DNA of 37,760 nt, taken from positions 1 through 37,760 of the forward strand of contig JAAWOG010000032.1 in NCBI GenBank assembly GCA_022799355.1, in the 5' to 3' direction. Shown piece by piece: positions 5,409 through 30,718 of the stretch. This DNA is from Lachnospiraceae bacterium (GTDB lineage Bacteria; Bacillota; Clostridia; Lachnospirales; Lachnospiraceae). Positions within the stretch are counted from its first letter, which is position 1. Each line of letters begins with the position of its first letter. Made by a program: the position numbers and the translations under genes. The notes beneath the pieces are model-generated. The model saw only the letters and a program-made list of their open reading frames with translations, had not been told where the DNA came from and made no database searches.

Positions 5409-5412
5409 CTCC

Positions 5413-10896: not shown

Positions 10897-12720
10897 TTAA
10901 TCGCCCGCCGGCTCTTCCTTCTGTTTTTCTGCCTCCGCTGCTTTTTCCGCTTCCGCAACCTTCGCCGCTTCTATCCCGGCTTTTATGTCCAACGCATCCA
11001 TCTTCCGGGAGATTTCGTCTACCTTATCCTCCATTTTCAGGGAGGCATACACATCCTTTGCAAGAAGACAGTATTTTTTTGCCGTCATATAGTCTCCTAT
11101 ATCCGCTGCTTCCTGCGCCTGCTGCTCATACTCCTCTGCTTCCTGCTTCTGTAAATCCCTCTCCCTTATCTTCTGCTCTACGGCATTTTGTTTTTCCTGC
11201 GCCGCCGCTGCCTGAATCTCATCCTCCATACTACCGTAAGTCTGCTGTGCCGAAGCATAATATACCTTTGCACTCTCATAATCCCCCTGCGCAAAAGCTT
11301 CGTCCCCTTTCGCTATATAGTTGGCTCCGGACTCCTGTTGCGCCAGCTGCTTTTTTATCTCTTCATCCTCCGCCTCTTTCTCCGCCTTCTGGTCCGTATA
11401 CAACTTTTCCAGGGCATCCATAGCACTGGTGCGCCCCTCATCAAAGTAGATCCTGCCGGCAAGGGCTTTTGCCTCCAAATATTTTTCCTCCGCCTTGCTA
11501 TATTGAAGGTTGAGCGCTAACACATCTCCCAGGTTGATCAGATCATAGACCGAAATATAATTCGCTGTTAAGGCAAGCCGCTCTTCTATATAATCCATCC
11601 CCACATTGTCCGTATACCTGGAACGATTCGCCGCTTGCTGATAGCCTTTCTGTGCCTCCGCATACTTTTTGCCATCCAATTGTTCCTCCGCCGCAAGGAC
11701 TGACTCAATCAGTTTCTGACAGTTCCCCAGTTCCTTCCGCATCCCGGTATCTTTCAGTTCCTCTGCCAGCGCAAGAGCATCAGCACACCTCTCGCCGGCG
11801 CGTACATAATTATCCGACTGAATATACTCAATGGTATCCGTATATCCCAGTTCCATTTGTTTTTTCTTCTCCATTTTCCGGTTATGGCGCACCACAAGCA
11901 CCACTGTTATAATGCTAAGCATGATAACGATCGGTATTGCTGCCATAAGTATCCTGCGGATTCGGCGTTTTTTATTGGGATCTGTGAATACCTTGTTGAT
12001 AAACAAGGTGACAAAGGTATATTTACCGAGATTCTCCGGTTGCCTTGACAAAAGCATCTCTTCCACATTGTCAACCAGTTCCTGCGGATCATTAGACGCT
12101 TCTGCAAATACGTCCCTCAGCTCTCCTTCATCCACATGCTCCCAGATGCCTCTGGTATACAGGGCCAGCGCATCCGTATTTGTCAATTTTATTTTTTTGG
12201 ATATAAAAGGATGAAACTCCTTTGCCTGCCCGAGGTAGGCGTACAGGTTATTTCTCTCCTCATGGTCAGATACCTTGTCAGGCTCCACCCGCTCTTCTTT
12301 CACAAGATCCGCCGTCAGGGACTGGTCAGTGGACTGCTGCCTGATAAAACCATTGTGGTACAGGCGCAGGCGTATATTTCCTGCCTGTCCATACCGCAAT
12401 TTTACATAATTGGTAAGCACCACCATAATGGATGCCTTCAGCCTCATCCTGCTCTTTGCTTCTAAAAGTGCCTTGTTCGCCGCTTGCAAGCAAGAGAGCA
12501 TAGTACGCCTGCCCATGGACGGCGCCTCAGAAAACGCACTGACTGCCGCCGCTACCGCAAGCTTTGCGCTCAAAGCATCCGCCTGGTCATCGATTCCGTC
12601 CGCGATTACATAACAGGCAAAGTCATCCAGTTCTACAAAACCGAAATAATCCGTATTTTTTAAATCATGATCCGCTTCTGAAGTAAAAGCTGTTTTAAAC
12701 TCCGCATTCTGTTTTCTCAT
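10897..12720 (-). CDS. Degenerate PP2C-like domain with membrane segment and TPR-like C-terminal region
   Basis: Residues about 15-245 follow the PP2C fold but have lost catalytic acids: the DGxGG loop is ADGIDD (40-45), the GDS strand is AGN (113-115), the SDG motif is TRGIW (189-193), and the terminal DN is replaced by KYTF (233-236). A transmembrane helix follows at about 257-277, flanked by basic clusters on both sides. Residues 285-607 are helical repeats in TPR style (AEEKYLEAKAL; GDEAFAQGDYESAKVYYASA; GDYMTAKKYCLLAKDVYAS), with a Lys/Glu/Ala coiled tail. It is probably a pseudophosphatase that senses or binds phosphorylated partners in the cytoplasm and presents repeats across or along the membrane. 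It overlaps the active PP2C gene as ATGA. Membrane anchoring makes it a candidate docking component of the apparatus. Confidence 0.75.
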   Translation of the reverse strand: MRKQNAEFKTAFTSEADHDLKNTDYFGFVELDDFACYVIADGIDDQADALSAKLAVAAAVSAFSEAPSMGRRTMLSCLQAANKALLEAKSRMRLKASIMVVLTNYVKLRYGQAGNIRLRLYHNGFIRQQSTDQSLTADLVKEERVEPDKVSDHEERNNLYAYLGQAKEFHPFISKKIKLTNTDALALYTRGIWEHVDEGELRDVFAEASNDPQELVDNVEEMLLSRQPENLGKYTFVTLFINKVFTDPNKKRRIRRILMAAIPIVIMLSIITVVLVVRHNRKMEKKKQMELGYTDTIEYIQSDNYVRAGERCADALALAEELKDTGMRKELGNCQKLIESVLAAEEQLDGKKYAEAQKGYQQAANRSRYTDNVGMDYIEERLALTANYISVYDLINLGDVLALNLQYSKAEEKYLEAKALAGRIYFDEGRTSAMDALEKLYTDQKAEKEAEDEEIKKQLAQQESGANYIAKGDEAFAQGDYESAKVYYASAQQTYGSMEDEIQAAAAQEKQNAVEQKIRERDLQKQEAEEYEQQAQEAADIGDYMTAKKYCLLAKDVYASLKMEDKVDEISRKMDALDIKAGIEAAKVAEAEKAAEAEKQKEEPAGD

Positions 12721-13568
12721 CTACGCCCTGCTCCCGTTCCTATCCCGAGGAGGATGATGCTGGCATTATCTTTGTCCTTAGCCGGATTTATATTTACCAG
12801 CTCGATCACATCAAACGCTTTTCTCTGACAACTTTCCGCCCTCCCGAGGGCCTCCTCGATCTCCTTTGTCCCCAGCAGTTCATATACTCCATCACTCATC
12901 AACGCCACGATATCTCCCTCTTTCAGCCTGATGGGCGCATCAAAATATTCGATATCCCGAAAGCCGTCCTGCCCGAGGTAATTATAAAGCCTCCTGTTTT
13001 CTAAAAGGGCGAGAGCATCTTCTCTTGAAATGGCTCCTTCTTTAAACTTCTGCTCCGCCAATACTGCCACTGTATGCCCGGATGATACCGGCACAAGGGC
13101 TCCCTCACGAAAGACACAGACCTTTACATTCCCTACAAGCGCATAATATAAAAATCCCTTCCGGATCATAGCGCATCCCGCGCTGGCAGAGCCTCTTCTT
13201 TCATCTCCAAGCACTTTCAAAATTTCTTTATTGGCACAGTGAAACGCTTTCCTGAAATAATACTGTGGATTATTAAAGGCATTATAGTCCTTAAAAATAT
13301 CTGCACAGGTATTCACTGTGATCCGGCTGGCAATCCTTCCGCCGAAAGCCGTCCCTGCTCCGTCCGCAAGCACCGCCATCACGCCAGCGTCCGTCCTTAT
13401 GATTTCCCCTTGGTCCTCCTGGACTTCCCTGCTACCGATGGTCATGCTGATCCCACCGTCCACATCATTTCCTTTCTGCTTAACGGGCCGGCGGATAAAC
13501 AGCTTCGCAGCCTCCAAAAGCAAGATGCAGCCTGCCATCAGGCAGATTGCTAAAAAATATATATCCAT
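12717..13568 (-). CDS. Membrane-anchored PP2C-type Ser/Thr phosphatase
   Basis: This 283-aa protein starts at the ATG at 13568, chosen because GGAGG lies 5 nt upstream and no such site precedes the ATG at 13604. One N-terminal membrane helix (3-25) is followed by a complete PP2C domain. The metal-binding motifs are present: QED at 50-52, DGAGTAFGG from 69, GSASAG (the usual G-x-x-G strand) near 126, LMSDG with Asp226, and KDN with Asp267. It should remove phosphates from Ser/Thr in a metal-dependent way at the membrane. It is the likely equivalent of PppA in the threonine phosphorylation pathway of type VI systems, with the two upstream FHA genes as readers. No kinase gene is visible in the window. 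Confidence 0.88.
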   Translation of the reverse strand: MDIYFLAICLMAGCILLLEAAKLFIRRPVKQKGNDVDGGISMTIGSREVQEDQGEIIRTDAGVMAVLADGAGTAFGGRIASRITVNTCADIFKDYNAFNNPQYYFRKAFHCANKEILKVLGDERRGSASAGCAMIRKGFLYYALVGNVKVCVFREGALVPVSSGHTVAVLAEQKFKEGAISREDALALLENRRLYNYLGQDGFRDIEYFDAPIRLKEGDIVALMSDGVYELLGTKEIEEALGRAESCQRKAFDVIELVNINPAKDKDNASIILLGIGTGAGRR

Positions 13569-13582
13569 AAGCACCTCCGCCC

Positions 13583-14101
13583 TTATTCCGCTTCGTTTCC
13601 CCACATAAAGTTCATTCCGCAGAACGGGATAAATACAAAGGTGGATTTTCCCAGTTCAATCTTGTCATAAGCATTGAGCGACGTCGGTACATATACCGCA
13701 TCCTCATTCAGATATACCAGCCCGTTGGAATCTCCCGGCAGGAGTACCGTTTCTTTCTTTTTTGGATCAAAAACGATAACCGCATGGTTGCGGCGGGATA
13801 TTTCATTGTCTCCAAGTATTTGGATATCCATATCATCCGCCCTTCCTACAAAATTTTTGCCGGATACAACCTTATAATCCTTTCCCTGCCTGGGCCCGGA
13901 GATACATACGATCCAGCCGCATACCGGCTTGATATCCTCCCGAAACAGCGCCTCTTCCACATCGATATCCGATTGTCGAGTCTCCTTTTTTTCCGGCGTT
14001 TCGGTCTCTAAGTTACAATACGGGCACACTGTCCCATAACGTTTTCTACTGAACATATGCCCATTCTGGCACCGAATTAAGTTTGAAACCGTATCTCCCA
14101 T
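13583..14101 (-). CDS. FHA-domain protein with N-terminal zinc-ribbon-like motif
   Basis: This 172-aa protein begins with CQNGHMFSRKRYGTVCPYC (residues 11-29), a probable four-ligand zinc knuckle (three Cys plus a His). The second half is an FHA phosphothreonine-binding domain: G-R at FVGRADD, the S-R-x-N-H stretch in EISRRNH, and a closing strand near LNAYDKIELG. FHA proteins bind phosphothreonine on a kinase substrate; Fha1 does this in type VI systems to license assembly. Together with the neighbouring FHA and PP2C genes it forms a phospho-signalling module. GGAGG lies 8 nt upstream of the start. It is soluble, with no membrane segment. Confidence 0.88.
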   Translation of the reverse strand: MGDTVSNLIRCQNGHMFSRKRYGTVCPYCNLETETPEKKETRQSDIDVEEALFREDIKPVCGWIVCISGPRQGKDYKVVSGKNFVGRADDMDIQILGDNEISRRNHAVIVFDPKKKETVLLPGDSNGLVYLNEDAVYVPTSLNAYDKIELGKSTFVFIPFCGMNFMWGNEAE

Positions 14102-14135
14102 TTCTCATTTCCTCCGTAAATTTAATATGATGCAT

Positions 14136-14678
14136 TTATATAAGCTGAAGCCTTGTCATCCCGATATGGATAATATCCCCCTTCTCCATCCTGCATGGCT
14201 TTCCATAAGCGATCCTGTATTTTTTTCCATCCCTTTTCTGCACACTCACGCCGTTTTGTGATGAGATATCCTCTATATACCAGTTATTGCCGGAATAATT
14301 AAGCACCGCATGTTCCACGTCTATCATGCCCGCATAGGCTGTCTGGTCCAAGTTTACATTTACATGGTTCTCCCCTGTATCCCTGCCGATCACCAGTCCG
14401 TTTTTACCGTAAATATTCCAGCTCGTAATCCGCTTCCCCTCTTCATCCAAAAGCACCAGTTCTGTTGGCGTCCTCTCCGGGGCACGCTCTGCCGCCGGTG
14501 CCTCAAAAGCATTTATATGACTTCTGCCGCCGGCTACCGCCAGCATTAGGTGCAGCGCTCCGGCAGCCACCGAGAAAATGATCCAACGCCGTCCCTCATC
14601 CCATCCAAGCCGGCTCCAAAAAAGAAGCGCTACCGCTATAAATAAAATTGTAATGATCAGGTTTATCTTTCTTTTCAT
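14136..14678 (-). CDS. Membrane FHA-domain protein
   Basis: This 180-aa protein has two predicted membrane helices at about residues 5-22 and 31-48, so both ends are probably cytoplasmic. The C-terminal FHA domain starts near residue 83 and carries LVIGRDTGENHV (the Gly-Arg that contacts the backbone), DVEHA (the S/D-x-x-H loop) and SSQNGVSV (the Asn-Gly turn). It would recruit a threonine-phosphorylated protein to the membrane. The start overlaps the J-domain gene stop as ATGA, so the two are coupled. The two FHA genes here are not close copies of each other, so they probably read different phosphosites. Confidence 0.88.
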   Translation of the reverse strand: MKRKINLIITILFIAVALLFWSRLGWDEGRRWIIFSVAAGALHLMLAVAGGRSHINAFEAPAAERAPERTPTELVLLDEEGKRITSWNIYGKNGLVIGRDTGENHVNVNLDQTAYAGMIDVEHAVLNYSGNNWYIEDISSQNGVSVQKRDGKKYRIAYGKPCRMEKGDIIHIGMTRLQLI

Positions 14679-15109
14679 GACTGCCTTTTAATCCCCATAA
14701 ATTTATCAAAAATATCTGACGCATCCAGCGGATTTTTTGTCCCCTGTCTCAGCCTGTCTTCGTTCACAATATCCTTCGTATCCGGATTAAATCCGAAGAA
14801 ATTCTCAAAGCTTCTGTATACATTCTGAAAATCCACTGGATTCACATCCGGCATGGAGTCATGAGTCTTTGCCCTTTCTACATTTTTTTCCTGAAACCCC
14901 CGGCTCCTCTCCTCATCATATGCCCTGCGCTTTTCCGGATCGGAAAGGATGCTGTATGCCTCCGATATTTCCCGGAACCTCCGCCCGCACTCTTCATCCC
15001 CCGGATGCATGTCCGGATGGTACCTTTTCGCCAGCTTTCTGTATACCGTTTTTATCTCTTCCTCCGGCGCATGCGAGGATACGCCAAGCACCTGATACCA
15101 ATCTACCAT
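14675..15109 (-). CDS. J-domain (DnaJ-type) co-chaperone
   Basis: This 144-aa protein has an N-terminal J-domain with the essential HPD at 31-33 (KRYHPDMHPGDE) and the typical YRKLAKRYH and EISEAYSILSDPEKRRAYD helices. There is no Gly/Phe linker and no zinc-finger region, so it is a minimal type III J-protein. The C-terminal approximately 65 residues (NPVDFQNVYRSFENFFGFNP) are probably the client-binding part. It very likely stimulates the Hsp70-like ATPase encoded 6 kb downstream in the same operon. It is the first gene after the terminator hairpin at 15140-15168, so its expression depends on readthrough or an unseen promoter. Confidence 0.9.
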   Translation of the reverse strand: MVDWYQVLGVSSHAPEEEIKTVYRKLAKRYHPDMHPGDEECGRRFREISEAYSILSDPEKRRAYDEERSRGFQEKNVERAKTHDSMPDVNPVDFQNVYRSFENFFGFNPDTKDIVNEDRLRQGTKNPLDASDIFDKFMGIKRQS

Positions 15110-15191: not shown

Positions 15192-15620
15192 TCAGGCTCC
15201 TACATACCCGCCTTCAATCTGGATCGTATCCAGCTTATCTTTTTTCTGTTTGATTACGATCGTAAACACGCCTGTCCCGTCGCTGTTTGAAAAATCTTCT
15301 TTATAGTCGATCACAAACGCCCTGGGGAAGCTGTACTTTCTCTCCACTACACCGGCGCTGATAATCTCCACCTCAACCTGCCTGTACGCAGCCGCATCTT
15401 CTGCCGGGACCATGGACCATTTTCCCAACTGAAGCGTGCTGTCAAAAGGATCGCCGTCTGTTGCCACCAGTATCTTACCGGATATTTCCAGTGTACAGCC
15501 CACATCCTTCGTCCTGGCATTGGAATCCAACGGGATATCTGTGCGGAACTTTACTTTCTGTACACACTCCTTCGCAACCTCAAAACTGTTTGCACCATTA
15601 ACCGTTACTCTTAATGACAT
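15192..15620 (-). CDS. Contractile-system inner tube protein (Hcp-like), copy B
   Basis: This 142-aa all-beta protein resembles tail-tube/Hcp subunits: a short opening strand (MSLRVTVNG), a conserved stretch around 'IPLDSNARTKDVGCTLEISGKIL', a central WSMVPAEDAAAYRQVEVEII segment, and a closing repeated pattern FVIDYKEDF...FTIVIKQKKD. It is paralogous to the next upstream gene (copy A) with the same layout and the shared words SNAR, FV-x-x-Y-x-E and KQKKD. Hcp is about 160 aa, so this is slightly short. It should stack as hexamers inside the sheath. AAGGAGG lies 8 nt upstream and 14 nt separate it from copy A. The large intergenic terminator follows. Confidence 0.82.
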   Translation of the reverse strand: MSLRVTVNGANSFEVAKECVQKVKFRTDIPLDSNARTKDVGCTLEISGKILVATDGDPFDSTLQLGKWSMVPAEDAAAYRQVEVEIISAGVVERKYSFPRAFVIDYKEDFSNSDGTGVFTIVIKQKKDKLDTIQIEGGYVGA

Positions 15621-15634
15621 TTTTATGTTCCTCC

Positions 15635-16060
15635 TTATGCTCCAAATCCGCCTTCAACTGCAACCATCCTGGTCAGGTCCTTCTTCTGCTTTACATGCAG
15701 GTAGAATTCGCCAACACCGGTCTCATCGTCAAGCGACTCCTCGTATTCCATCACAAACGCATTTGGCAGGGTTACTTCCCGCACGATTTGTCCCGCTGCC
15801 ACCACATTCACTTTTACATTCCTGTAAGCGTCCGCGCTCTCGCTGGGCACAACGCTCCATTTTGCCATGTTTAAGGTTGCATCCTGCGCCTCCGCTCCCA
15901 GTGAGAACAGCATTTTTCCCCAGATTTTCAGCGTAGCGCCGTTATCTGTCGCCCGCGCATTGGAATCCGCCGGGATCTCCGACTGAAACTCCACTCTCTT
16001 CACACACTGTTCAGTCAGGCTAACCGGGCCTGAACCATCAATTGATACTCTGAATCCCAT
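15635..16060 (-). CDS. Contractile-system inner tube protein (Hcp-like), copy A
   Basis: This 141-aa all-beta tube subunit is a paralogue of copy B. Shared landmarks are a CV-x-x-V-x-F stretch, IP-D-SNAR, GATLKIWGKML, a W-S-V-V-P-S-E-S-A-D-A-Y-R core, NAFVMEYEE and LHVKQKKD, ending GGFGA. The copies differ in many surface positions, so they could form different parts of the tube (for example tip rings against body rings) or separate tubes, as in extracellular CIS that encode several tube proteins. AGGAGG lies 8 nt upstream. It follows the sheath gene by 72 nt, the usual sheath-tube pairing of phage tails and type VI systems. Confidence 0.82.
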   Translation of the reverse strand: MGFRVSIDGSGPVSLTEQCVKRVEFQSEIPADSNARATDNGATLKIWGKMLFSLGAEAQDATLNMAKWSVVPSESADAYRNVKVNVVAAGQIVREVTLPNAFVMEYEESLDDETGVGEFYLHVKQKKDLTRMVAVEGGFGA

Positions 16061-16132: not shown

Positions 16133-18325
16133 TTACTGTGCATGAGAAGTCAGACGGTTTATCTGTACTTCCAGGTTTCTTGGACTGCCATTAAAGGAGA
16201 TCGTCAGTTCACAAATCCCTGTCGTCTCATCGATCGTATACTCCAGGTTATCTCCTTCCCTGATGATCGCGTTAATGCAGTCCTTTTTCGCCAGCCACCG
16301 ACTCTTCTGGCTCTTCGGGTTAGTGGAGAAGAAATTCTTTAAATTGTCTTCCTTGAAATCCCCTGTCACATACCGGAGTATCCTTTCTATATAAGTAGTG
16401 ACCTGCGTTTTATATACCGGTTCATATGTCGAATGCTCCGAATCATATAAAAGATTTCTCGCCTTATAAACCGTTATATTCGTGATTGCCGCACCATTTA
16501 AAGATGCGTTCTCCGACGCAAACACCCAGCCGAAATTCTTCTGGTTGATCTGTGTCTTGATCGTATTGGTAAACCCTGTGATCTCCTTGGGCATGGTAGT
16601 ATATGCCATCAGAGAGTTATTCCCCGCCTCGATATCAAATCTGACACCGGGTAATTCTAAATCTGTCTTCACTTTATTCACTGCAAAATGGTTCTTTATG
16701 TATTCCGGACACTGGCACGCCGCGCGGAATCCTGCCGCCACATACGCGCCGTTGATATAAACACCCTCGATCCACAGCCTTACCACATCTTCTTTTTCTT
16801 TTGACAGCTCCACGCCCTCCTCCTTCGTCATATGCATTTTACTGTCAAGGATAACGCCGGATTTATTTTTGGGCAGTACTGTAAAATTCGGAACTACCGG
16901 TATCGCAAACTCACTGTATGTTTTTCCCATCAACGGCTTGCAGCGCTCAATTGCTTTTTCGATTCCCTCTGCCGCTATGGCATTAAATGTGGTCTCCTCC
17001 CTGTTCTCAAAAGAAAAGAAGGTTTCAACCCGGTAATCCTTCAATACGTTGAGCAGCGTAGATAAAGATTCCATACTGTTTACATCCGTCCCGGCTTTCT
17101 TCACATTTCCCTGGAACCTTTCCCTGTGGATCTTATTGGTAACATTCTGGTTCCAGGATAAGTTTGGATAAATCGCATACCAGAGCGTATCATTAAAATT
17201 ATTTTTGCTGTTCGTCGTATTTAAGTATGTGATCAACCGCGGAATGTTGGAACTCTTTGCCAGCATCTCCGGTGAGATATTGACAATCACCAGCGCAGGC
17301 GCCATCCCCTTCGTTCTCGTCTTATACTGGTCAAAGAACATCCTGATCCCAAGCAGCTTCTCCACCAGGGGTTTTACAACTTTGATAAAATTATCCTTTG
17401 ACGTACGGTAAAACTCCAGATAAGAATTGTAATTCGCCACCTCTGTTTTTACATCTACTTTTGTCTGGTTCATCCCGGTCAGAGGGCAGAATGTCCGTAC
17501 CACAAGGTCTTGTACATAATCACTTGGTTTTTCCACGCTGACAGACTGATAATCATCCTTCAGTACTTGTGCAAGCCCCGTCATGGTATTATCTTCCAAC
17601 ACCGCCAATCCCACGCTCTCTTCTTTTGGTGCTTCCAGCACTTTCAGTTCACCGTTTTCTGCCATCGCAAGGTAACCGGCAACCACTCCCTTTCCGCTGT
17701 CCGACTCATCCCCGGCGCCTAACAGGAGTCGGGTTTTGATATCCTCTATCGCCAACGGAAGCATCGCCATAATATTATTGTAGTTTTTGCTGGCGTCCTC
17801 AAATAACAAATTCAGCTTATCCCCCAGGTCCAGCTTGGCGGGATCTCCCTCTTCCAATTCCGAATATTTTTTATAATTGTACTGTATCTCCTTGCGGACC
17901 TGCCTGATGTCCTCCATTACCTTCTTTGGGGAGATCATCTCGAGGAGCTTCTCAAAATGAAACTCTACGTTCAAAAGCCCCTGGGATTTTCTGGAATCCA
18001 TCACTGTGAGGATTGTCTTAAAGAAACTGTCATAGTCGTTCAGGTTGATCACTGTCAGCATGGATTCAGGAATGTTTTCCGGGCGTTCCAGCGTATACCT
18101 GACCGACTGGGAGCCCGCGTCATAAAATGACCATACCCGCGGCTCAAACTTACGCTCCATCTCTTCATAGCTGCGGCATTCCAGATGCTGGTTGATCTCC
18201 CGCATTTTGTCATCATCCAGGCTGTCCAGCCCCCTTACGTCCCCCACCAGCGTCAGCAGGTCCATCTTATCGGGATTCACCACATCCAGAAGCAGTGTCC
18301 GATTTGTTTGGTTGATTATTTCCAT
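16133..18325 (-). CDS. Contractile sheath protein, 730 aa, probable TssB-TssC-type fusion
   Basis: This very large sheath candidate is placed directly before two tube genes. Residues about 85-175 resemble TssB: a strand with LNVEFHF (118-124), then L-x-x-I-S-P-x-x-V and a helix with the spacing of the TssB 'NVxLxFxSLxDFxPxxV' region. The remaining approximately 500 residues have the size of TssC and end in strands ELTISFNGSPRNLEVQINRL, like the C-terminal handshake strands that interlock sheath subunits. Typical TssB is about 165 aa and TssC about 500 aa, while single-chain phage sheaths are mostly 350-500 aa. The match is by eye. It is soluble with no signal. GGGAG lies 8 nt upstream of the start. 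Confidence 0.75.
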   Translation of the reverse strand: MEIINQTNRTLLLDVVNPDKMDLLTLVGDVRGLDSLDDDKMREINQHLECRSYEEMERKFEPRVWSFYDAGSQSVRYTLERPENIPESMLTVINLNDYDSFFKTILTVMDSRKSQGLLNVEFHFEKLLEMISPKKVMEDIRQVRKEIQYNYKKYSELEEGDPAKLDLGDKLNLLFEDASKNYNNIMAMLPLAIEDIKTRLLLGAGDESDSGKGVVAGYLAMAENGELKVLEAPKEESVGLAVLEDNTMTGLAQVLKDDYQSVSVEKPSDYVQDLVVRTFCPLTGMNQTKVDVKTEVANYNSYLEFYRTSKDNFIKVVKPLVEKLLGIRMFFDQYKTRTKGMAPALVIVNISPEMLAKSSNIPRLITYLNTTNSKNNFNDTLWYAIYPNLSWNQNVTNKIHRERFQGNVKKAGTDVNSMESLSTLLNVLKDYRVETFFSFENREETTFNAIAAEGIEKAIERCKPLMGKTYSEFAIPVVPNFTVLPKNKSGVILDSKMHMTKEEGVELSKEKEDVVRLWIEGVYINGAYVAAGFRAACQCPEYIKNHFAVNKVKTDLELPGVRFDIEAGNNSLMAYTTMPKEITGFTNTIKTQINQKNFGWVFASENASLNGAAITNITVYKARNLLYDSEHSTYEPVYKTQVTTYIERILRYVTGDFKEDNLKNFFSTNPKSQKSRWLAKKDCINAIIREGDNLEYTIDETTGICELTISFNGSPRNLEVQINRLTSHAQ

Positions 18326-18438: not shown

Positions 18439-20232
18439 CTATGCCATCTCGGAAGGTTTTAAAACTTTATATTGGAACGTCAGTTCACTCACCTCATCCT
18501 CAAACGCGATATCCACCTTCGCTTCTTCCGGCAAAGGATAACTCCTTTTTTTCATCAGTATCTCCCCACTCTTCATGATGCAGCAGTCTGACTGGTTCGT
18601 CAGTATTACGCTCTTACCCTGCCCGGAACTTACATAAATCCGGTCAGCGCCTTCAAACTGCTCCCTCACCCCACAACTCTCAAGAATCTCTGCAAAAGAT
18701 ATCACCTTTCCGGAAGGAAGTCGGAACAAATCATAGGATAATGGGGCAATATCATAACCTGATGGAGCCCTGGTGATATAAATATTCAGCTTTCCTACAT
18801 AGCTGGACTTTCCTGGGGCCGGGCGCCCATCCTGTACGAAACGTACCGCCGCCTTCTGCGTTTTGTATGGCCTTCGGAAGATCAAAACCGCAAGGATGCC
18901 TGCTATAGAAGCCGTGAGGATTCCATAAAGCGCGTAAGGTGGTTCCGGTTCGGGCTCCGGAATCGGGCGCAGCGGCGCTTCCTCCAGTTCTAACAGGACA
19001 TTACTCACAGCCAATACATTTACCGGAAGCGCGGAACAGTCAAAACTCACTTCCCCTCTCAGGCTTTCTTTTACATCCCTCCGATCCGTCAGTTTTCCAC
19101 CTTCGATGGGCATTTCCTCAAATGCCCCTCCCACTCTGACGCCGATTTTTCCATGTGTAAAATATTCTTCCGTCCAAAGCCTGATATTTTCATTATCCGC
19201 GTCATAAAACGTATATTCTATCAGTGCTTCTCTCTCATACCTGAGCGCTGTCCCATCAGAAGGCTCCCTGTCCTCATAGGTTACCTTTACCTTTGGTATC
19301 ACCCGGTATTCCGGGATCAGCATGATCCGCACCTGGCTTCCTGCAGTTCCCGCAAAGCCGATCTCGAGCTTGTCATCTTTCGGTTTGCTTATTTCAATCA
19401 GGGAATACCTCTCACCTGTTATTTGACGCGCTCCCTCTGACTTAAAATTTGTTTTGACATTCCGGATCGGCGCATCACTCGTTAGCAGCACCCGGACCGT
19501 ATCCGCATATAAAAACGGCAGTTCAACCTGAACTTTTTCCGCTTCTCCATCCGCATCTATAATAGATGCCCTCATCTGCTTTATCCCGAAACGGTCAGTT
19601 AATACGGATTCCATCACCTCCGAAAGCCTAAGCGCCTGGGGAGTATAATAAATGCCTCCCCCTGTTGCGGATGCCGCCTGAAAAACAGAGTTTCCCGTAT
19701 CCTCCATCTCTTCCCCCAGCCCTGCCACATGGATCGTGATCCCCTCTCTGGCTGCCCGCTCTTCTGCCTCCTGATATACCCTTCGGGATAGTTCTGTACT
19801 CTCCTCATCCTGCATTAGTACTTCCCCATCAGAGAGCATCACAATACTTTTTTTATCTGCCGGGGAATACTCCAGAATCTCCACCGCCCGTAAGAGCCCT
19901 GCCCCCGCATTGCTGTAATTTTCATACTTCACATCACGGGCTGCTGCCATGATCCGGTCTCTCGACATATTATCCACAAGGGGTATGTCTGCACAAACAT
20001 TCGTATTATATGCCACGAATCCGGTTTCATAATCCGTGGGCAGGCTGTAGATAAGCTGTGCGATACTATCCGCAGCATATCCGAGCGGATCGTTTGTTTT
20101 CATGCTTCCGCTGGCATCTAAAAGAAATACAACAGCTTTTTTATCTGCAGCCACATCTTCTTTTGCGCTTGCCATACATGGGAAAAGCAGAAAAAATATG
20201 ATGCACACAAATACGCCCGCCGCATTTTTCAT
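18439..20232 (-). CDS. Membrane-anchored von Willebrand factor A protein, first gene of the CIS operon
   Basis: I start this protein at the ATG at 20232: AAGGAG lies 7-8 nt upstream, the product then begins with a clean signal peptide (MKNAAGVFVCIIFFLLFPCMASA), and a start at 20259 would fall at or upstream of the predicted transcription start. The 597-aa protein has an extracytoplasmic VWA domain from about 33 with MIDAS DASGS (39-43) and LSDGE (Asp135). Beta-rich domains follow, then a Pro-Glu linker, one membrane helix at about 433-452, and a cytoplasmic beta-rich tail of about 145 aa that looks like a degenerate FHA-type sandwich. It could sense envelope contact through metal-dependent adhesion and relay this inside to the phospho-module. 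It is the first gene behind the agr-like promoter. Confidence 0.85.
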   Translation of the reverse strand: MKNAAGVFVCIIFFLLFPCMASAKEDVAADKKAVVFLLDASGSMKTNDPLGYAADSIAQLIYSLPTDYETGFVAYNTNVCADIPLVDNMSRDRIMAAARDVKYENYSNAGAGLLRAVEILEYSPADKKSIVMLSDGEVLMQDEESTELSRRVYQEAEERAAREGITIHVAGLGEEMEDTGNSVFQAASATGGGIYYTPQALRLSEVMESVLTDRFGIKQMRASIIDADGEAEKVQVELPFLYADTVRVLLTSDAPIRNVKTNFKSEGARQITGERYSLIEISKPKDDKLEIGFAGTAGSQVRIMLIPEYRVIPKVKVTYEDREPSDGTALRYEREALIEYTFYDADNENIRLWTEEYFTHGKIGVRVGGAFEEMPIEGGKLTDRRDVKESLRGEVSFDCSALPVNVLAVSNVLLELEEAPLRPIPEPEPEPPYALYGILTASIAGILAVLIFRRPYKTQKAAVRFVQDGRPAPGKSSYVGKLNIYITRAPSGYDIAPLSYDLFRLPSGKVISFAEILESCGVREQFEGADRIYVSSGQGKSVILTNQSDCCIMKSGEILMKKRSYPLPEEAKVDIAFEDEVSELTFQYKVLKPSEMA

Positions 20233-20259
20233 TTTGGTACTCCTTAGCCTTTTTGTCAT

Positions 20260-20310
20260 ATTTTATCGAAAAAAGTATTTTCCTGTAAATATCTGGAAGA
20301 CAATGTGACA
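20260..20310 (-). promoter_or_regulatory. Promoter of the CIS operon, near-copy of the agrD promoter
   Basis: On the minus strand: -35 TTTACA at 20284-20289, an 18-bp spacer, -10 TAAAAT at 20260-20265, giving a leader of about 20 nt before the VWA start. The box CACATTGT (20300-20307) sits 10 bp upstream of TTTACAGGA. The whole stretch aligns without gaps to the agrD promoter: same box, same 10-bp spacing, same 19-bp spacing to ATATGACAAAAA. A further 38 bp upstream (AAATGA word at the same distance) is also related. A shared activator, most simply the LytTR protein AgrA, is inferred. Confidence 0.75.
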
Positions 20311-20439
20311 TTTTTAAACAAAAATGATCGTTTTTTTGATCATTTATCCTCAAAATGTGTACATTTCACTTTCAGCTTCCACAACTTTCTGAAGCATAAG
20401 CATATATAAAGTTATTTTGAGAGCCTCTTTGTCATTTTA

Positions 20440-20467
20440 AAAGAAAAATCCCCCGTCTCCGGGGGAT
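20440..20467 (-). terminator. Intrinsic terminator after the agrDB transcript
   Basis: On the minus strand a 7-bp stem (ATCCCCC with GGGGGAT, loop of 6) is followed by TTTTTCTTTT. It separates the agr transcript and the Rpn remnant from the CIS promoter, so the injection system is not simply read through from agr. The roughly 130 nt between it and the CIS promoter box contain no gene. Confidence 0.85.
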
Positions 20468-20495
20468 TCTCTGTAACGTCTTTGCAGGCAGTTTA

Positions 20496-20694
20496 TTATA
20501 CTGTCTGCTTTCCAAACATTTTGATATATTCCTGCGCCATCTGCAGCGACACATTCAGTTTCTTTTGTAACCTCTCCAATATATCATTTTCAGAAAGCCC
20601 AAATTCAAAGCCTGTTTCAATAATTTCTATCGCTCTGCCTTTTTTCACCTTTTGCTTCATTTTCTCTTGCAATTTCATCAAACATAGTACACAT
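20496..20694 (-). pseudogene. Frameshifted C-terminal tail of an Rpn-family transposase/nuclease
   Basis: A well-placed AAAGGAG and ATG (20694) start MCTMFDEIARENEAKGE, which looks like the late part of Rpn/PD-(D/E)XK transposase-like proteins common in Lachnospiraceae. That frame stops after 25 codons. If one base is adjusted at the run of six A (plus-strand T6 at 20640-20645), reading continues as GRAIEIIETGFEFGLSEND...ILERLQKKLNVSL...AQEYIKMF, the typical helical Rpn tail, to a stop at 20496. The nuclease domain is absent. It is probably a decayed remnant. A small functional protein made by frameshifting at A6 is possible but unlikely. Confidence 0.55.
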
Positions 20695-20795
20695 ATCAAA
20701 GTCTCCTTTCTCAGATAATGCATCCAAAACGGTCCATCCCTGCCTCCCTTTCATCTTTCAAGGTATAATTCTCAGTAGCTCTGTTGCAGAGAGTT

Positions 20796-21374
20796 TCATT
20801 GCCCCAGTTTTCCCAGTACCGCTAAAACAGTGTTCAGCCCCATTCCCACCGTCATGAAATACGGCAGCCGGATATCTCCGGCTGCCGCCCATATAGTGAT
20901 ATAAAGGATAAAAAAGATGATAGAATCCCAAATCTGGCGGCGTTTAAAAAATAAAACTTCTTCCTGATCCAGTTTTCTGTTTTGATGCTCCACCGGGGTA
21001 AGCCGCCACATCAGGCATATACCCGCCGCCAGAAAAAGATGCACCTGCCACGGCAGTACATACCGAAATCCGTCAGCCAGAAAAAGTCCTGCCGTAATCG
21101 CCGTACAGGAAAAAACATAGCAGCCCATCCGCGTTTTTGCGTGAAAGCCGCCGGTATTTCTCCTGAAAAAACTTAGTATACCGAAAATAATAAGAAACTC
21201 CGGTATTTTTTTCATGACAGCCGCTATCAGCATATAGGTGGAAATGTGCGCCGCCTTTAACAGCATGACCTCCACACCGAATTTATATGCCTCCGCCTCC
21301 GTGTCATCTATCGCCTTATCTGCCAGCAGGCAGCTTACGATTTTATCAGTCAGCTTATGAACAATGCCTTTCAC
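20796..21374 (-). CDS. agrB: AgrB-type cyclic-peptide processing protease
   Basis: This 192-aa polytopic membrane cysteine protease has the catalytic pair His78 (RRNTGGFHAKT) and Cys85, the same 7-residue spacing as His77/Cys84 of staphylococcal AgrB. Several membrane helices follow, for example 60-70 and 100-121. It cuts the C-terminal tail from AgrD and forms the thiolactone ring before export. The start is a GTG at 21374 with AAGGA about 6-7 nt upstream; it overlaps the agrD end by 20 nt, so the pair is coupled. Family length is about 190-210 aa, so it is complete. Confidence 0.93.
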   Translation of the reverse strand: MKGIVHKLTDKIVSCLLADKAIDDTEAEAYKFGVEVMLLKAAHISTYMLIAAVMKKIPEFLIIFGILSFFRRNTGGFHAKTRMGCYVFSCTAITAGLFLADGFRYVLPWQVHLFLAAGICLMWRLTPVEHQNRKLDQEEVLFFKRRQIWDSIIFFILYITIWAAAGDIRLPYFMTVGMGLNTVLAVLGKLGQ

Positions 21375-21513
21375 GATTTTTCCTTCCGTTTTTCATCTGT
21401 TTCACCGACTCTGGCATATGGGGCTGATAGCCAATAATACAGCATGCGCTGTCCTTCTCTTTTTCAATAACTTTTCCTGCTATTTTTGCTAAAAGGTCTG
21501 ATGCTTTTTTCAT
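21355..21513 (-). CDS. agrD: AgrD-type autoinducing peptide precursor
   Basis: This 52-aa precursor has an amphipathic N-terminus (MKKASDLLAKIAGKVIEKEK), a core around 22-29 (SACCIIGY) and a C-terminal recognition tail QPHMPES followed by a charged end. Clostridial AgrD peptides commonly show Cys-x-x-x-aromatic and then (E/Q)P-x-x-P-E. The predicted mature ring is Cys25-Ile-Ile-Gly-Tyr29 closed by a thioester, perhaps with Ser-Ala-Cys as an exocyclic tail. Two adjacent Cys (24, 25) leave the ring choice open. The ATG at 21513 is preceded by AAAGGAGAG; longer in-frame readings upstream run through the promoter and are not real. Confidence 0.9.
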   Translation of the reverse strand: MKKASDLLAKIAGKVIEKEKDSACCIIGYQPHMPESVKQMKNGRKNRERHCS

Positions 21514-21542
21514 TGGACACTCTCCTTTTATTTTTTTGTCAT

Positions 21543-21649
21543 ATTCTATAATAAAAGGAACCTTCCTGTAAACGGCGAAACCACAATGTGTCAATTTTAT
21601 GCATATAATGGTCATTTTTATGTCATTTAAAGTCGAATTTTGACACATT
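21543..21649 (-). promoter_or_regulatory. agrD-agrB promoter with 10-bp inverted repeat
   Basis: On the minus strand: -35 TTTACA (21567-21572), an 18-bp spacer, -10 TAGAAT (21543-21548). Box CACATTGT lies at 21583-21590. The 10-mer AATGTGTCAA occurs at 21585-21594 on the plus strand and its exact inverse TTGACACATT at 21640-21649, 45 bp apart, giving two facing half-sites upstream of -35. The CIS promoter has the same proximal box and a related distal TGTACATT at nearly the same distance. It is likely bound by the AgrA-type regulator for positive feedback. Confidence 0.75.
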
Positions 21650-21651
21650 TT

Positions 21652-21678
21652 AAAAAAAACAGGGCTCTTTAAGTCCTG
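21652..21678 (-). terminator. Intrinsic terminator after agrC
   Basis: On the minus strand a stem with one mismatch (CAGG-a-CTT paired with AG-a-g-CCCTG) is followed by eight T. The agrC stop codon lies inside the hairpin. It separates the agrA-agrC transcript from the agrD promoter. Confidence 0.7.
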
Positions 21679-22973
21679 CTTTTTATCTCCTGTCCTTTCA
21701 TATTCAACCATATTTCACATATTAATTTGTTTCCTTTATCCCTGTAATCTATCGTTCCGCAATAGGTATCCACACATTTTTCTATATTCAAAATCCCAAT
21801 TCCTTTTTTAGATACCGCAATCATCCCATTCCGAATCGGGACCGGCTCATCGACACTGTTTTCTACCCGAACAAGCAACATATCATTACACCTGCTCAAA
21901 AATAACCGGATATATTTTTCACCCCCACAGTTTCCAGCAGCTTCCACTGCATTATCCAGAAGGTTTCCAAATAAAGTAGTGATATCTATAGATTCCATAA
22001 AGTTTACATCGGCCGTCGATACATCTATCTCAAATGAAATCCCACACTGTTCTGCCGCCCTGATCTTGTCAATCAGCAGACAATTCAGGATCGGATTATT
22101 GACATATCTCATAGGCATCAAAGGTTTTAACATTTCATTGATCTGTCTTGTATAATCTAATGCCTCCCTCCTGTTCTCCCTGTATAATGTCTCAATCACG
22201 TTGATGTGTTTTTTTACATCGTGAAGTACGGATAATGCTCTTGTGTATGTTTCTTTTTGTATCTCATAATTCTCAAAGCGCAGCTTTTCCTGCTGATGCA
22301 TCATATCATTCTGCAGTTTATAAAAATTTCTTTCATCCAGGTATTTCATAAAATAGAGCAGAAACATATTGGATAATACAATACTTCCCATGACAACCAT
22401 CAAAAGGCGCGGATGCTCTTCGCCAGAAATAGAAGCGGTTGCCAAAACATTTACTGTACTGTAAAAAAACATAGCTAAATAGATAAAATACTGGAAAGTT
22501 GTACGAACCATCCTTCTCCGCCACAGCCGCACGAACAATACATAATAGAGAAAGAGCATAACCGCTTTTGAAAAAGTATATTCTATGCTTCGCAAAAGCT
22601 GCGGATCTGCTGGCATAATCCCCAAAGTGTCCATTATAAAATCAATGAAATAAACACCTACTGCTTCTGTCACACCAAGTACCGTAAAAAAAGCACCTGA
22701 TTCAAATATCCTCATAAGCCTACTAACATTCTTTCCTTCATAAAACCAGGCACTCACGATCACAATCATAACCATATTGGATAAAAGGTTTAAAAAAGGA
22801 TTCATCATCGTATTCGCAGTCATTGCGGCGATAACATATATGAAAGCAAGAACCTTATACAAATGCTTTACCGTATACTTTCTTTCATATTTCTCGCCCC
22901 AAAACTGGAACATCATAAAGACAACCGTAACACAGGAAACAAAAGAAGAAAACCATAATGCTATTTTATACAT
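21669..22973 (-). CDS. agrC: AgrC-type sensor histidine kinase (GHKL)
   Basis: This 434-aa kinase starts at the ATG at 22973, where GGGGGGTGGA precedes it and an 8-bp overlap with the end of agrA suggests coupling; a start at 23063 would overlap agrA by about 100 nt. About six membrane helices span residues 1-210, the usual peptide-sensing module. A coiled segment leads to the H-box SVLHDVKKHINVIE with His251. The GHKL ATPase has NLLDNAVEA (337-345) and a G-box KKGIGILNIEKC. It should autophosphorylate on binding the cyclic peptide and pass the phosphate to the response regulator. Confidence 0.92.
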   Translation of the reverse strand: MYKIALWFSSFVSCVTVVFMMFQFWGEKYERKYTVKHLYKVLAFIYVIAAMTANTMMNPFLNLLSNMVMIVIVSAWFYEGKNVSRLMRIFESGAFFTVLGVTEAVGVYFIDFIMDTLGIMPADPQLLRSIEYTFSKAVMLFLYYVLFVRLWRRRMVRTTFQYFIYLAMFFYSTVNVLATASISGEEHPRLLMVVMGSIVLSNMFLLYFMKYLDERNFYKLQNDMMHQQEKLRFENYEIQKETYTRALSVLHDVKKHINVIETLYRENRREALDYTRQINEMLKPLMPMRYVNNPILNCLLIDKIRAAEQCGISFEIDVSTADVNFMESIDITTLFGNLLDNAVEAAGNCGGEKYIRLFLSRCNDMLLVRVENSVDEPVPIRNGMIAVSKKGIGILNIEKCVDTYCGTIDYRDKGNKLICEIWLNMKGQEIKSRT

Positions 22974-23727
22974 TCCACCCCCCCATCGAGCTATAAAAGA
23001 ACTCTGCCATCTTTTCCCGAAAATCCACACTCCGTCTCCGGGACAAAGGCAGCTTCTCTCCATTTTTTAAAATCAACTCCTGCGTTTTCATTTCTCGGAC
23101 CTTCTCAAAATTTACCATAATTCCTCTGCTGCAGATTCCAAAACCAAACAGTCTGAATTTTTCTTCAAGTTCAGGAAATTCCGACTGATACAAAAATACG
23201 CCATTTTTGGTAGTGACTTTAATGAAACTATCATTTTTTATCCCCTCGAAATATATGATATCTCGCACTGGAATCCTTGTCGTATGTTGTTCTTCTCCTT
23301 TGGTGGGGTATATCCATTTAGTGTTGCTGAAAGTTACCCACATATTCTGTATCCCTTCTCTTGTCCTCAGGAATTCTTCAATTTGATTTTTTAACAATTC
23401 CTTTTCCACTGGTTTTGTCAAGAATGCAAAGGCATGTGATTTATTGACAGCATTCACACACTCTTCGCTAAAATTTGTCTGGAATATAACTTTTACATTT
23501 CTATTTTTCCAATATATTTTTTTCCCTATCTCAATTCCATCTTCTCCATTTAATTTGATATCTATAAAAATGAGGTCAAATGATAATCCTGAGTCCAACA
23601 ACTCTTCTCCCGTATCAAAATTCTGAATATCATACCGCACAGAAAAATGATCCATTACCTCTTCAACCAGTGTCCGCATATGTAACAAGTCCTTTTTCTC
23701 ATCATCACAAATCGCTATCTGCAGCAT
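22966..23727 (-). CDS. agrA: AgrA-type LytTR response regulator
   Basis: This 253-aa protein has a receiver domain with the acidic pocket DD at 8-9, the phosphoacceptor Asp56 (IFIDIKLNGEDG) and the conserved Lys in FLTKPVE. A LytTR DNA-binding domain follows from about 145 (IPVRDIIYFEGIKNDSFIKV; SEFPELEEKFRLFGFGICSRGIMVNFEKV; LPLSRRRSVDFREKMAEFF). LytTR proteins bind direct repeats of about 9 bp upstream of -35, matching where the shared promoter boxes lie. It precedes agrC in one transcript. Its own promoter matches consensus, so the sensor pair is probably made constitutively while agrDB and the CIS are the regulated outputs. Confidence 0.92.
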   Translation of the reverse strand: MLQIAICDDEKKDLLHMRTLVEEVMDHFSVRYDIQNFDTGEELLDSGLSFDLIFIDIKLNGEDGIEIGKKIYWKNRNVKVIFQTNFSEECVNAVNKSHAFAFLTKPVEKELLKNQIEEFLRTREGIQNMWVTFSNTKWIYPTKGEEQHTTRIPVRDIIYFEGIKNDSFIKVTTKNGVFLYQSEFPELEEKFRLFGFGICSRGIMVNFEKVREMKTQELILKNGEKLPLSRRRSVDFREKMAEFFYSSMGGWNV

Positions 23728-25326: not shown

Positions 25327-28527
<3,201 letters not shown>

Positions 28528-28546: not shown

Positions 28547-30718
28547 TTATATAGTATACCATCTAATCTCATTTGCTTTCAAGTCCAGAGGAAAACTTTT
28601 TCCGTCGCCCTTATATACTATGGTGCTCTGCGGCTCATACGTATTATTAACCACACAGAACTTCCCGTTCTTCACATAGGCATGGACATCCACATAATAG
28701 TTTTCGGAGAACCACTGATGAAGCTGTGCTTCGCCGTTGCTGCTCCACAATATGGCGCGGTACAGGATACGGCTGTTCTCAAAACTGTAGGGCAGCCCCG
28801 AGATATAGACAGTGCGCCCCTTCCCGTACTCATTTACCGCCATCTGGACTTCTTTGTCATGCTGCACCAGAATCTTCGTCCCCTCCAGCGCGTACATGTT
28901 TTTCTTGCCCTCGCCGAAATCCACCTCCCCGGCACTATCCGCCAGGATAAAGTGTTCTCTGTCCTCCTCCCAGTTATACTTATCATACCCCAGAGTAAAT
29001 CCCGTTTCCTTCTCCACTCCAAGGGCTTTCGCAAGCTGCAGGAAATGTCCCTGATACTGATGCCCGGAAGGTTCTCCAACACCGATAAAGCCGCCGCCCT
29101 GATAGATAAACCGGCGGATTACGGAAGAAATGGCCTCATCCTCCCAGACGGAACCTCCCGTATGGGCGGTATCGCCGTCTCCGATGTTAAGTATCACATC
29201 AATCCCCTCCAAAACCCCGGGATTTTCCCGGATATCGTCAAAGGATAAAAATACCACATCAAAGGGCGCCCCCGAAAGGCTTTCTATCACTCCCGCATAA
29301 CCGTAATTCTGTTTCTGGTACAGGGCGTGGTGCACCATATGGCATCCCCAGGAACGCATCCGTCCCCAGCAGTTCAGCACCGCCACACGCTTCTGACAAT
29401 ACCCTTCCGTCCCGCATATATTCTCATAAAGCTCTCTGAACTCCCCGCACACACTCTCCACATAGTCGATAAATTCCGGGAACTGACATGCCAGCTTCAG
29501 ATAACCGCCGTAGCCAATCCTGTCGATAGGCTTCCGCAGAATCGCCCTGCGGGCCGTCACCCAATTTTCCATCGCCTCCTTCACCGGATCGCCGCCCTCA
29601 TGGAATGTATCCGGGAAAAAGTAGGGCAAAAATCTGCCTTCCGTATAACGTACTCCGGGAATATCCGCGATCAGCCGCAGGGTGGAACCGTTGCCCACCG
29701 AACCTACCACCGCATCCACGCCCGTCCTGCTAAACTCGTCCATAAAGGGCTCCGTGCCGATCCAGTGATCTCCCAGGAACATCATCGCTTCCTTTCCCAG
29801 TTCATGTGTCAGATCAACCATCTCCCTCACCAAAGCCGCAACTTCACGGCGCTGGAAAGCCATAAAATCTTTATATTCCCGGCTGGGTTCTCTGTACTGA
29901 TTATTGTAATACCCCTGATCGATGATATATTCCGGCCTGAACCGATAGCCTGCCTCTTTCTCAAATTTTTCCAGGATATACGGAGATACCGAAGCGGAAT
30001 AGCCGTACCAGTCCACATATTTTTCCCGTTTCAGCTCATCAAAGATCAGCGTAAACTGATGGAAAAACGTCGTGTAGCGAATCACATCCACGTGGGGATT
30101 CTCCTCCACAAACCGGCGCAGACGCTTCAATGTATAAGCATGTGTCTTGGGCTGGCGCACATCAAAGGTGATCTGATGTTCCACGTCCTTCCAGTCATTG
30201 ACCACCGCATTGTACATATGCACGGGATCCCATATCAGATAAGCCAGAAAACTCACCGTATATTCATGAAAAGGCACCGGCTCCTTCAGGACCACGCAGC
30301 CCTTTTTATCATCATACTCCCATTTATCAGGGGGAAGAGGCACTCCGGCACTTCGGTCCATAACCTCCCACCAGCGCTTTTTATCATCACGGGTATTGAC
30401 CATCAGAAGTTCCTGGCTGATCCCTGCCATCAGCGGTATCTCCAGAGTCCCTTCCTTCGCCAGATGAAATCCGGTCATAATATAACACTGCTGCACTTCA
30501 TCGGGATTTGCCTTTGCCCACTCATTGTCCTTTCTGGTCGTATAATAGGTAGAATAGACCTTTGCCTCCACCGCTTTTAATGCCTCCGGGTAATCCGTGC
30601 CGTCACAGTCACGGATCGCATCCGCCCCCCAGCGCTCAAGCAGCTCAAGCGTCTCCGGCACTACGTCCACATCCGTAGGAATCGTTACCCTGCCTCTGTT
30701 TTTTATGTTTTCGTTCAT
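28547..30718 (-). CDS. GH112 1,3-beta-galactosyl-N-acetylhexosamine phosphorylase
   Basis: This 723-aa enzyme is a galacto-N-biose/lacto-N-biose I phosphorylase, recognised from its length and motifs: GRVTIPTDVDVVPETLELLERWGADAIRDCDGTDYP at the start (9-43), RYTTFFHQFTLIF, and GDHWIGTEPF with Asp317 in the position of the family's catalytic acid. The C-terminal part (from about 440) has a class I amidotransferase-like domain (VILNIGDGDT; FIGVGEPSGHQYQG) and then a beta domain. It splits beta-1,3-Gal-GlcNAc/GalNAc with phosphate into Gal-1-phosphate and the N-acetylhexosamine, saving one ATP. There is no signal, so it is cytoplasmic. Whether it prefers lacto-N-biose (milk) or galacto-N-biose (mucin) cannot be read from the sequence by eye. 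Confidence 0.92.
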   Translation of the reverse strand: MNENIKNRGRVTIPTDVDVVPETLELLERWGADAIRDCDGTDYPEALKAVEAKVYSTYYTTRKDNEWAKANPDEVQQCYIMTGFHLAKEGTLEIPLMAGISQELLMVNTRDDKKRWWEVMDRSAGVPLPPDKWEYDDKKGCVVLKEPVPFHEYTVSFLAYLIWDPVHMYNAVVNDWKDVEHQITFDVRQPKTHAYTLKRLRRFVEENPHVDVIRYTTFFHQFTLIFDELKREKYVDWYGYSASVSPYILEKFEKEAGYRFRPEYIIDQGYYNNQYREPSREYKDFMAFQRREVAALVREMVDLTHELGKEAMMFLGDHWIGTEPFMDEFSRTGVDAVVGSVGNGSTLRLIADIPGVRYTEGRFLPYFFPDTFHEGGDPVKEAMENWVTARRAILRKPIDRIGYGGYLKLACQFPEFIDYVESVCGEFRELYENICGTEGYCQKRVAVLNCWGRMRSWGCHMVHHALYQKQNYGYAGVIESLSGAPFDVVFLSFDDIRENPGVLEGIDVILNIGDGDTAHTGGSVWEDEAISSVIRRFIYQGGGFIGVGEPSGHQYQGHFLQLAKALGVEKETGFTLGYDKYNWEEDREHFILADSAGEVDFGEGKKNMYALEGTKILVQHDKEVQMAVNEYGKGRTVYISGLPYSFENSRILYRAILWSSNGEAQLHQWFSENYYVDVHAYVKNGKFCVVNNTYEPQSTIVYKGDGKSFPLDLKANEIRWYTI

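Follow-up and report, generated by a model that had tools for sequence, protein, structure and literature searches.

In a 37,760-nucleotide stretch of Lachnospiraceae DNA (contig JAAWOG010000032.1; hereafter the window), a complete agr quorum-sensing module lies upstream of an operon for a contractile injection system (CIS), all on the minus strand. The agrD-agrB promoter and the promoter of the CIS operon closely match one another. On the strength of the sequence comparisons described below, we consider it highly probable that the module is wired to the CIS through AgrA-activated promoters, such that the autoinducing peptide switches on the operon. Control of the CIS by agr through matched promoters was the core of the original prediction, and it draws support from promoter pairing, a 21-bp repeat period, and the adjacency or fusion of agrB and the first CIS gene (encoding a VWA protein) in relatives.

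In the proposed mechanism, AgrB would mature AgrD into a cyclic peptide, which AgrC would sense, phosphorylating AgrA. AgrA would then bind LytTR-type direct repeats, ∼21 bp from one another, that immediately precede two promoters whose 18-bp spacer is suboptimal. The agrD-agrB promoter would amplify the signal, and the second promoter, behind a terminator, would drive the CIS operon from the VWA gene onward; the syringe would be built when peptide accumulates. If AgrA activates both promoters, it follows that the peptide turns on CIS transcription. Judged from sequence, a single regulator shared by the two promoters can be regarded as established, short of experiment. It is very likely that this regulator is the adjacent AgrA, and likely that the peptide activates the CIS. 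The gene set, the promoter match, the spacing of the repeats, the recurrence among relatives and the CIS folds are shown by the analysis itself, whereas we infer AgrA as the binding protein, activation over repression, the identity of the peptide, and density dependence.

Matched promoters within the window

The agrD and CIS promoters align best without gaps, as had been predicted, with 72 of 110 bases identical and a score of 208 (1000 dinucleotide shuffles: mean 60, maximum 97). The coordinates confirm a box, 10 bp, and a core promoter with 18 bp between –35 and –10 at both places. At agrD, the box CACATTGT occupies 21590–21583, with TTTACA at 21572–21567 and TAGAAT at 21548–21543 (core TTTACA-18-TAGAAT, 21543–21572). 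At the CIS promoter, the same box occupies 20307–20300, with TTTACA at 20289–20284 and TAAAAT at 20265–20260 (core TTTACA-18-TAAAAT, 20260–20289). In both promoters, the word AAATGA begins 38 bases before the box, in register as claimed. The genome scan suggested along with the prediction found CACATTGT-N10-TTTACAGGA exactly twice in 3,790,911 bases, at these two promoters. A longer box pattern allowing up to two mismatches gave one poor third site, which is at chance level, since the reversed control pattern also gives two hits at this tolerance. Within the window, up to three mismatches still gave only two hits, versus 0.04 expected. Chance likeness of AT-rich DNA was considered as a source of the match and is ruled out by the shuffles, the genome scan and the within-locus ranking given below.

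LytTR sites consist of a 9-bp repeat with a 12–13 bp spacer. Both promoters carry LytTR-type direct repeats ∼21 bp apart upstream of –35, the promoter-proximal copy holding the box. At agrD, the repeats AAAAATGACCATTATA (21604–21619) and AAAATTGACACATTGT (21583–21598) are 21 bp apart. At the CIS promoter, AAAAACGATCATTTTT (20320–20335) and AAAAATGTCACATTGT (20300–20315) are separated by 20 bp when measured by A-tracts and by 21 bp when measured by CATT cores; AAAAATGTCACATTGT is kept in a related locus, L038. The distal half-sites were also said to be similar. Similar words do exist, the inverted copy AAAATGTGTCAA at agrD (21640–21651) and ATGTACACATTTT at the CIS promoter (20352–20364), but they are out of register in the window. 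In L038, AAAATGTGTCAA occurs in the CIS promoter, in register with the window's agrD copy.

Terminators separate the transcripts, as the original prediction held. An intrinsic terminator (20466–20444) precedes the CIS promoter, and a terminator-like stem followed by a T8 run (21678–21652) lies between agrC and the agrD promoter; the latter is assigned by sequence, and the terminator listing gives its stem for the plus strand only. That CIS transcription in the window comes from agrB readthrough alone was considered and is unlikely, with a terminator and a separate promoter in between.

The 18-bp spacing at both promoters is suboptimal. In PMC4227749, the S. aureus agr spacers are given as 18 at P2 and 20 at P3, both suboptimal, and a suboptimal spacer is ascribed to all known AgrA-activated promoters of that organism. 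This likeness bears on a different account, in which AgrA represses the CIS or sets its basal level, and another signal, acting via VWA, FHA or PP2C, triggers production or firing. The position of a site is by itself no proof of activation, and FHA and PP2C genes in the operon suggest post-translational control. Yet the window's sites precede –35 and the spacer is 18 bp, as in AgrA-activated promoters of S. aureus (PMC4227749), and loci in which agr and CIS genes are fused or adjoining probably co-transcribe the CIS with agrDB. We regard repression or a basal role as unlikely.

Promoter pairs and repeat period across loci

For comparison, we analyzed relatives of the window, comprising 80 loci (the best of 366) from a scan with ten sheath sequences, in which LytTR, AgrB and AgrC were identified by profile search. 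In eight tandem loci, agrD is present on the contig and there is space for a second promoter (the window, L020, L059, L063, L066, L077, L083 and L099). Nine loci were compared by shuffling. Among the seven of these with room, the locus's own agrD/CIS pair beat 100 of 100 shuffles in six (the window, L020, L059, L077, L083 and L099); in L062 and L064, which lack room for a second promoter, the pair did not beat all 100, as expected. Ranking within loci gave a similar picture: in 7/8 loci, the region upstream of VWA was the best match to the agrD promoter among 269–745 windows each. Scores for this region versus the next window outside it were 208 versus 81 for the window, 159 versus 87 for L020, 170 versus 94 for L083, 109 versus 78 for L077 and 108 versus 95 for L099.

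The shared promoter sequence differs from locus to locus. In a 7 by 7 matrix of agrD and CIS promoters, the sum of own pairs was reached only by the identity order among 5040 permutations. (The matrix omits L062, L064 and L093, which have no room between agrB and VWA; L065 and L079, with no agrD on the contig; and L066.) Such own-pair matching with locus-specific sequence would follow from each AgrA recognising the two promoters of its own locus. Because the boxes differ between loci, a fixed repeat consensus of the S. aureus type is not expected.

These comparisons also bear on whether the CIS promoter could have arisen recently by local duplication of the agrD promoter, as a passive copy without selected regulation. 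The likeness over 72 of 110 bases, core promoter included, would fit such a copy, and the terminator and a 75-aa open reading frame (ORF) between agrB and VWA suggest local rearrangement. Yet the pairing recurs elsewhere with different sequences, L038 conserves the window's CIS promoter with box and core above the upstream DNA, and agr and CIS adjoin or form one ORF in other genomes, leaving passive copying a very slim chance. As for origin, the pair may have come from duplication, as in the original prediction; the same picture would arise through co-evolution with AgrA or through gene conversion.

Direct repeats were assessed for periodicity, with the VWA promoter of L099 dropped (it contains a 14-bp satellite) and that of L066 not included. 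In the 11 tandem agrD promoters, period 21, the one expected for sites of an AgrA-type regulator, ranked first, and 0/200 shuffles scored as high, whether at 21 or at any period. The same period ranked first in the six CIS (VWA) promoters, with 3/200 shuffles as high at 21, and in a pool of 23 promoters (11 agrD, 6 CIS and 6 from fusion loci), where no shuffle of 200 was as high at 21 or at any period. As a control, 25 CIS promoters with no agr or LytTR gene nearby were taken, some of them near-copies of one another; here period 21 ranked 16 of 37. The control thus favours a link between the 21-bp signal and agr, though a neighbouring 20-bp period is present. Seven loci with LytTR only (L018 included) gave period 20 (0/200 shuffles as high); when L076, whose sequence contains Ns, was left out, 3/200 shuffles reached an equal maximum. 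The satellite of L099 lies between its CIS promoter and the VWA start (about 8100–8280), with units like GAGATATTATCAGT.

The agr module beside the CIS in relatives

A same-strand agrB lies within 700 bp upstream of VWA, or is fused to it, in 17 of the 80 loci. In eight others, a LytTR gene is present within 3 kb without an agrB so placed; L032 and L033 are doubtful members of this group, counting as LytTR loci only via a 600-aa ORF 1.4 kb away. A further 17 have too little upstream sequence to judge agr, and 11 lack a VWA gene immediately before the sheath gene. The family model TIGR04223 recognised AgrD in 10/10 precursors submitted, out of 15 found in the 80 loci. In L046, an AgrB gene (5198–5785, minus strand) is divergent from the CIS VWA gene, 273 bp apart, and no LytTR was found in the stretch examined.

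On a quick sheath tree of 66 rows, from which most loci short of upstream sequence were left out, 19 rows have agr, the window and one genome from outside the 80 loci included. The agr label requires 12 changes, at least eight of them forced by well-supported branches, which points to repeated gain or loss of agr next to this CIS. In L062, L064 and L093, where readthrough from agrB is the likely route of CIS transcription, the agrB and VWA genes abut or overlap when the first start codon is used.

In L073 (7664–9988), L075 (1004–3322), L078 (7664–9988), L082 (2018–4330) and L087 (7671–9989), a single clean ORF of 770 to 774 aa spans AgrB and VWA. In all five, agrD lies just upstream and agrA is divergent, with agrC where the contig reaches, and the fused AgrB retains a His and a Cys seven residues apart. 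The Pfam order is AgrB then VWA in L078 and L087, the two of the five scanned, and in L035, a further single ORF elsewhere in the tree. The five probably reflect one event, since they form one well-supported tree group together with L095. It is doubtful that the L035 fusion is a functional gene: its contig is short, and its incomplete VWA part lacks stretches found in relatives. With a fused protein as query, a search of 397 genomes of the family, in which only two candidates per genome were scored, returned no genome with AgrB and VWA as one match. L095, within the fusion group, retains agrA, and agrD, agrB and agrC were not found in the stretch examined. Its VWA lies directly behind a retained agr promoter (7929–8215) that adjoins agrA and aligns with those of L087 and L078; the locus seems to have lost the other three agr genes while keeping agrA and the promoter. 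From these adjoining, overlapping and fused genes, it follows that agr and the CIS can form one transcription unit.

Among the window's nearest relatives, L024 (of the same genus) keeps agrA and has a 104-aa remnant of agrC; no AgrB was found in its genome, and its CIS promoter retains the core TTTACA-18-TAAAAT and not the box. On the same contig, upstream of the decayed agr, a second LytTR gene (L014:4028–4771) is followed by a VWA-like fragment (4985–5161), perhaps left over from an earlier arrangement. The search of the L023 genome gave no AgrB, and the CIS promoter of this locus looks unrelated. In L038, the orthologous CIS promoter conserves both box and core, better than the DNA upstream.

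Several observations weigh against agr as the switch of the CIS. In the pairing analysis, margins were thin for L059 (95 versus 94) and for L066 (136 versus 132), which is AT-rich and whose low-complexity alignment was given little weight. In L059, L063 and L077, the agrD promoter scores better with CIS promoters from other loci than with the one of its own locus. As for periodicity, the six CIS promoters alone are not significant over all periods (43/200 shuffles reach an equal maximum at some period), nor are the six fusion promoters alone (0/200 at 21, but 64/200 reach an equal maximum). The 25 control promoters show a weak peak at 20, with 2/200 shuffles as high at that period and 8/200 over all periods. 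Moreover, in 27 of the 80 loci, each with at least 2.5 kb upstream, no same-strand agrB lies within 700 bp and no LytTR gene within 3 kb, so the machine can do without agr; among these loci are L024 (decayed agr, LytTR 3.9 kb off) and L046 (opposite-strand agrB). Two loci are so far the chief misfits. In L063, agr is complete, yet there is no shared box; the VWA region of this locus ranks fifth and fails the shuffle test. L038 keeps the box, yet no AgrB was found in its 2.2-Mb genome; the contig ends 241 bp upstream of VWA, and agr may be lost or merely unassembled.

The genome of the window adds a further point of this kind, encoding three AgrB (C34, C75 and C127) and six AgrA-like proteins, so another LytTR regulator could bind the boxes. 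The promoters would then still share a regulator, one other than the adjacent AgrA. Besides these further proteins, such an account could draw on CIS loci that have a LytTR gene without agrBD, and a distant regulator might explain the weak 20-bp period of CIS promoters that have no LytTR gene nearby. Yet the box changes between loci along with the local agr, and its exact form occurs at only two places in the window's genome. We therefore consider binding by another LytTR protein quite improbable, and AgrA the better candidate.

Genes of the window and comparison with known systems

The agr set is complete by Pfam and TIGR04223 profiles: AgrD, AgrB, an AgrC-type GHKL kinase and an AgrA-type LytTR regulator. 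agrA (22966–23727) encodes a 253-aa response regulator with a LytTR DNA-binding domain (Response_reg, 2.5e-13; LytTR, 2.6e-15). The ORF of the histidine kinase gene agrC (21669–23063; HATPase_c_5, 5.5e-16) encodes 464 aa, the true start probably being the internal MYKIALWF. The autoinducing peptide precursor gene agrD (21355–21513) specifies 52 aa containing ACCIIGYQPHMPE (TIGR04223, 1.6e-08; 34.5 bits versus a cut-off of 19). agrB (20796–21374) encodes the peptide-processing membrane endopeptidase, of 192 aa (PF04647, 1.3e-30; 106.6 bits), with a His and a Cys seven residues apart (GGFHAKTRMGC) that we take to be the pair of S. aureus AgrB. The 75-aa ORF between agrB and the CIS (20496–20723), whose single Pfam match falls under its cut-off, is probably the remnant of an inserted gene, presumably resembling the tail of an Rpn/transposase-like protein; it possibly marks an insertion that parted agrB from VWA. 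Genes for lacto-N-biose phosphorylase (28547–30718) and beta-galactosidase (25327–28527) beside the cluster suggest a gut glycan user.

The CIS operon begins with the VWA gene (18439–20231; Pfam VWA, 2.8e-12), whose product is AgrB-fused in some relatives. Next come genes for a contractile sheath-like protein of 730 aa with a sheath fold (16133–18325) and two tube proteins (15635–16060 and 15192–15620), the second 41% identical to the first. Tube protein 1 matches tubes of extracellular CIS (eCIS) and Hcp in Foldseek (best E 1.2e-04); at E up to 0.001 there were 24 matches, with eCIS tubes and Hcp on top, for a predicted structure of mean pLDDT 72.9, in line with an Hcp/gp19 fold. By Pfam, DnaJ, two FHA proteins and a PP2C-type phosphatase are encoded at 12717–15109. 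Spike and tip are represented by a VgrG-like protein (3370–4782; Phage_base_V, 25.5 bits versus a cut-off of 23.8) and a DUF4280 protein (265–1743; Pfam, 1e-19) that we take to be PAAR-like. With its Hcp/eCIS-fold tube, sheath-like protein, and spike-like and DUF4280 proteins, the machine looks like a real CIS.

The window's operon resembles eCIS (AFP, PVC) and the type VI secretion system in tube fold, contractile sheath fold, VgrG-like spike and DUF4280 protein. It differs in its VWA, DnaJ, two FHA and PP2C proteins, and in a sheath and tubes without a significant match in Pfam, PHROGs or NCBIfam (best, a PHROG of unknown function at E 0.069). Thirty-three sheath members searched against Pfam likewise gave no significant family, the best match being irrelevant (0.0034). 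Two short viral NS1 matches of the sheath in a PDB sequence search (best E 0.0033, ∼40 residues) were taken as chance; the tube protein had no match there. The scan found this type of CIS in Lachnospiraceae, Paenibacillus, Selenomonas, Pelosinus and others. In nine Paenibacillus loci (L074, L081, L084, L086, L089, L090, L094, L096 and L101), the same CIS occurs with a VWA gene placed upstream of the sheath gene on the opposite strand; neither LytTR nor AgrB turned up in the stretches examined.

S. aureus agr has the same AgrD/AgrB/AgrC/AgrA set, with a LytTR response regulator. Its P2 and P3 are divergent, and the output of P3 is RNAIII. The window's promoters are instead tandem, the second driving a protein operon for the CIS; gene order (agrA-agrC-agrD-agrB) and repeat sequence differ too, and in some relatives of the window AgrB is fused to the first protein of the output. 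The proposal that the arrangement mirrors P2/P3 thus stands for the regulator-site logic and the 18-bp P2 spacing, and not for the layout or the output. Direct repeats upstream of two suboptimally spaced promoters are common to both systems (PMC4227749).

To our knowledge, no signal that turns on a CIS in gut Firmicutes has been described. The literature searched, without bioRxiv and most subscription journals, held no paper on agr control of a CIS, nor did agr–CIS coupling, its recurrence or AgrB–VWA fusion appear in it; agr, AgrA-type promoters and the CIS are each of known kinds, and it is their coupling that was not found. A parallel lies in GerE (LuxR-type) regulator genes beside eCIS loci, sometimes with a histidine kinase, as stated in a 2021 Nat Commun paper (PMC8213781). 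These loci share with the window a regulator gene beside the CIS operon, some with a kinase; their signal is unknown, whereas the window has a full peptide quorum-sensing set and matched promoter sites.

More broadly, and only tentatively, agr may be a built-in CIS trigger in clostridial gut bacteria, repeatedly recruited and lost and co-evolving with its sites; in one clade, AgrB as part of a VWA membrane protein might couple peptide export to the state of the weapon. The AgrB–VWA fusion points to a physical link of signalling and machine. If agr does control the CIS, the cognate cyclic peptide would offer a direct handle, as its addition should induce the syringe, and strain-specific peptides could render injection between gut bacteria kin- or density-dependent.

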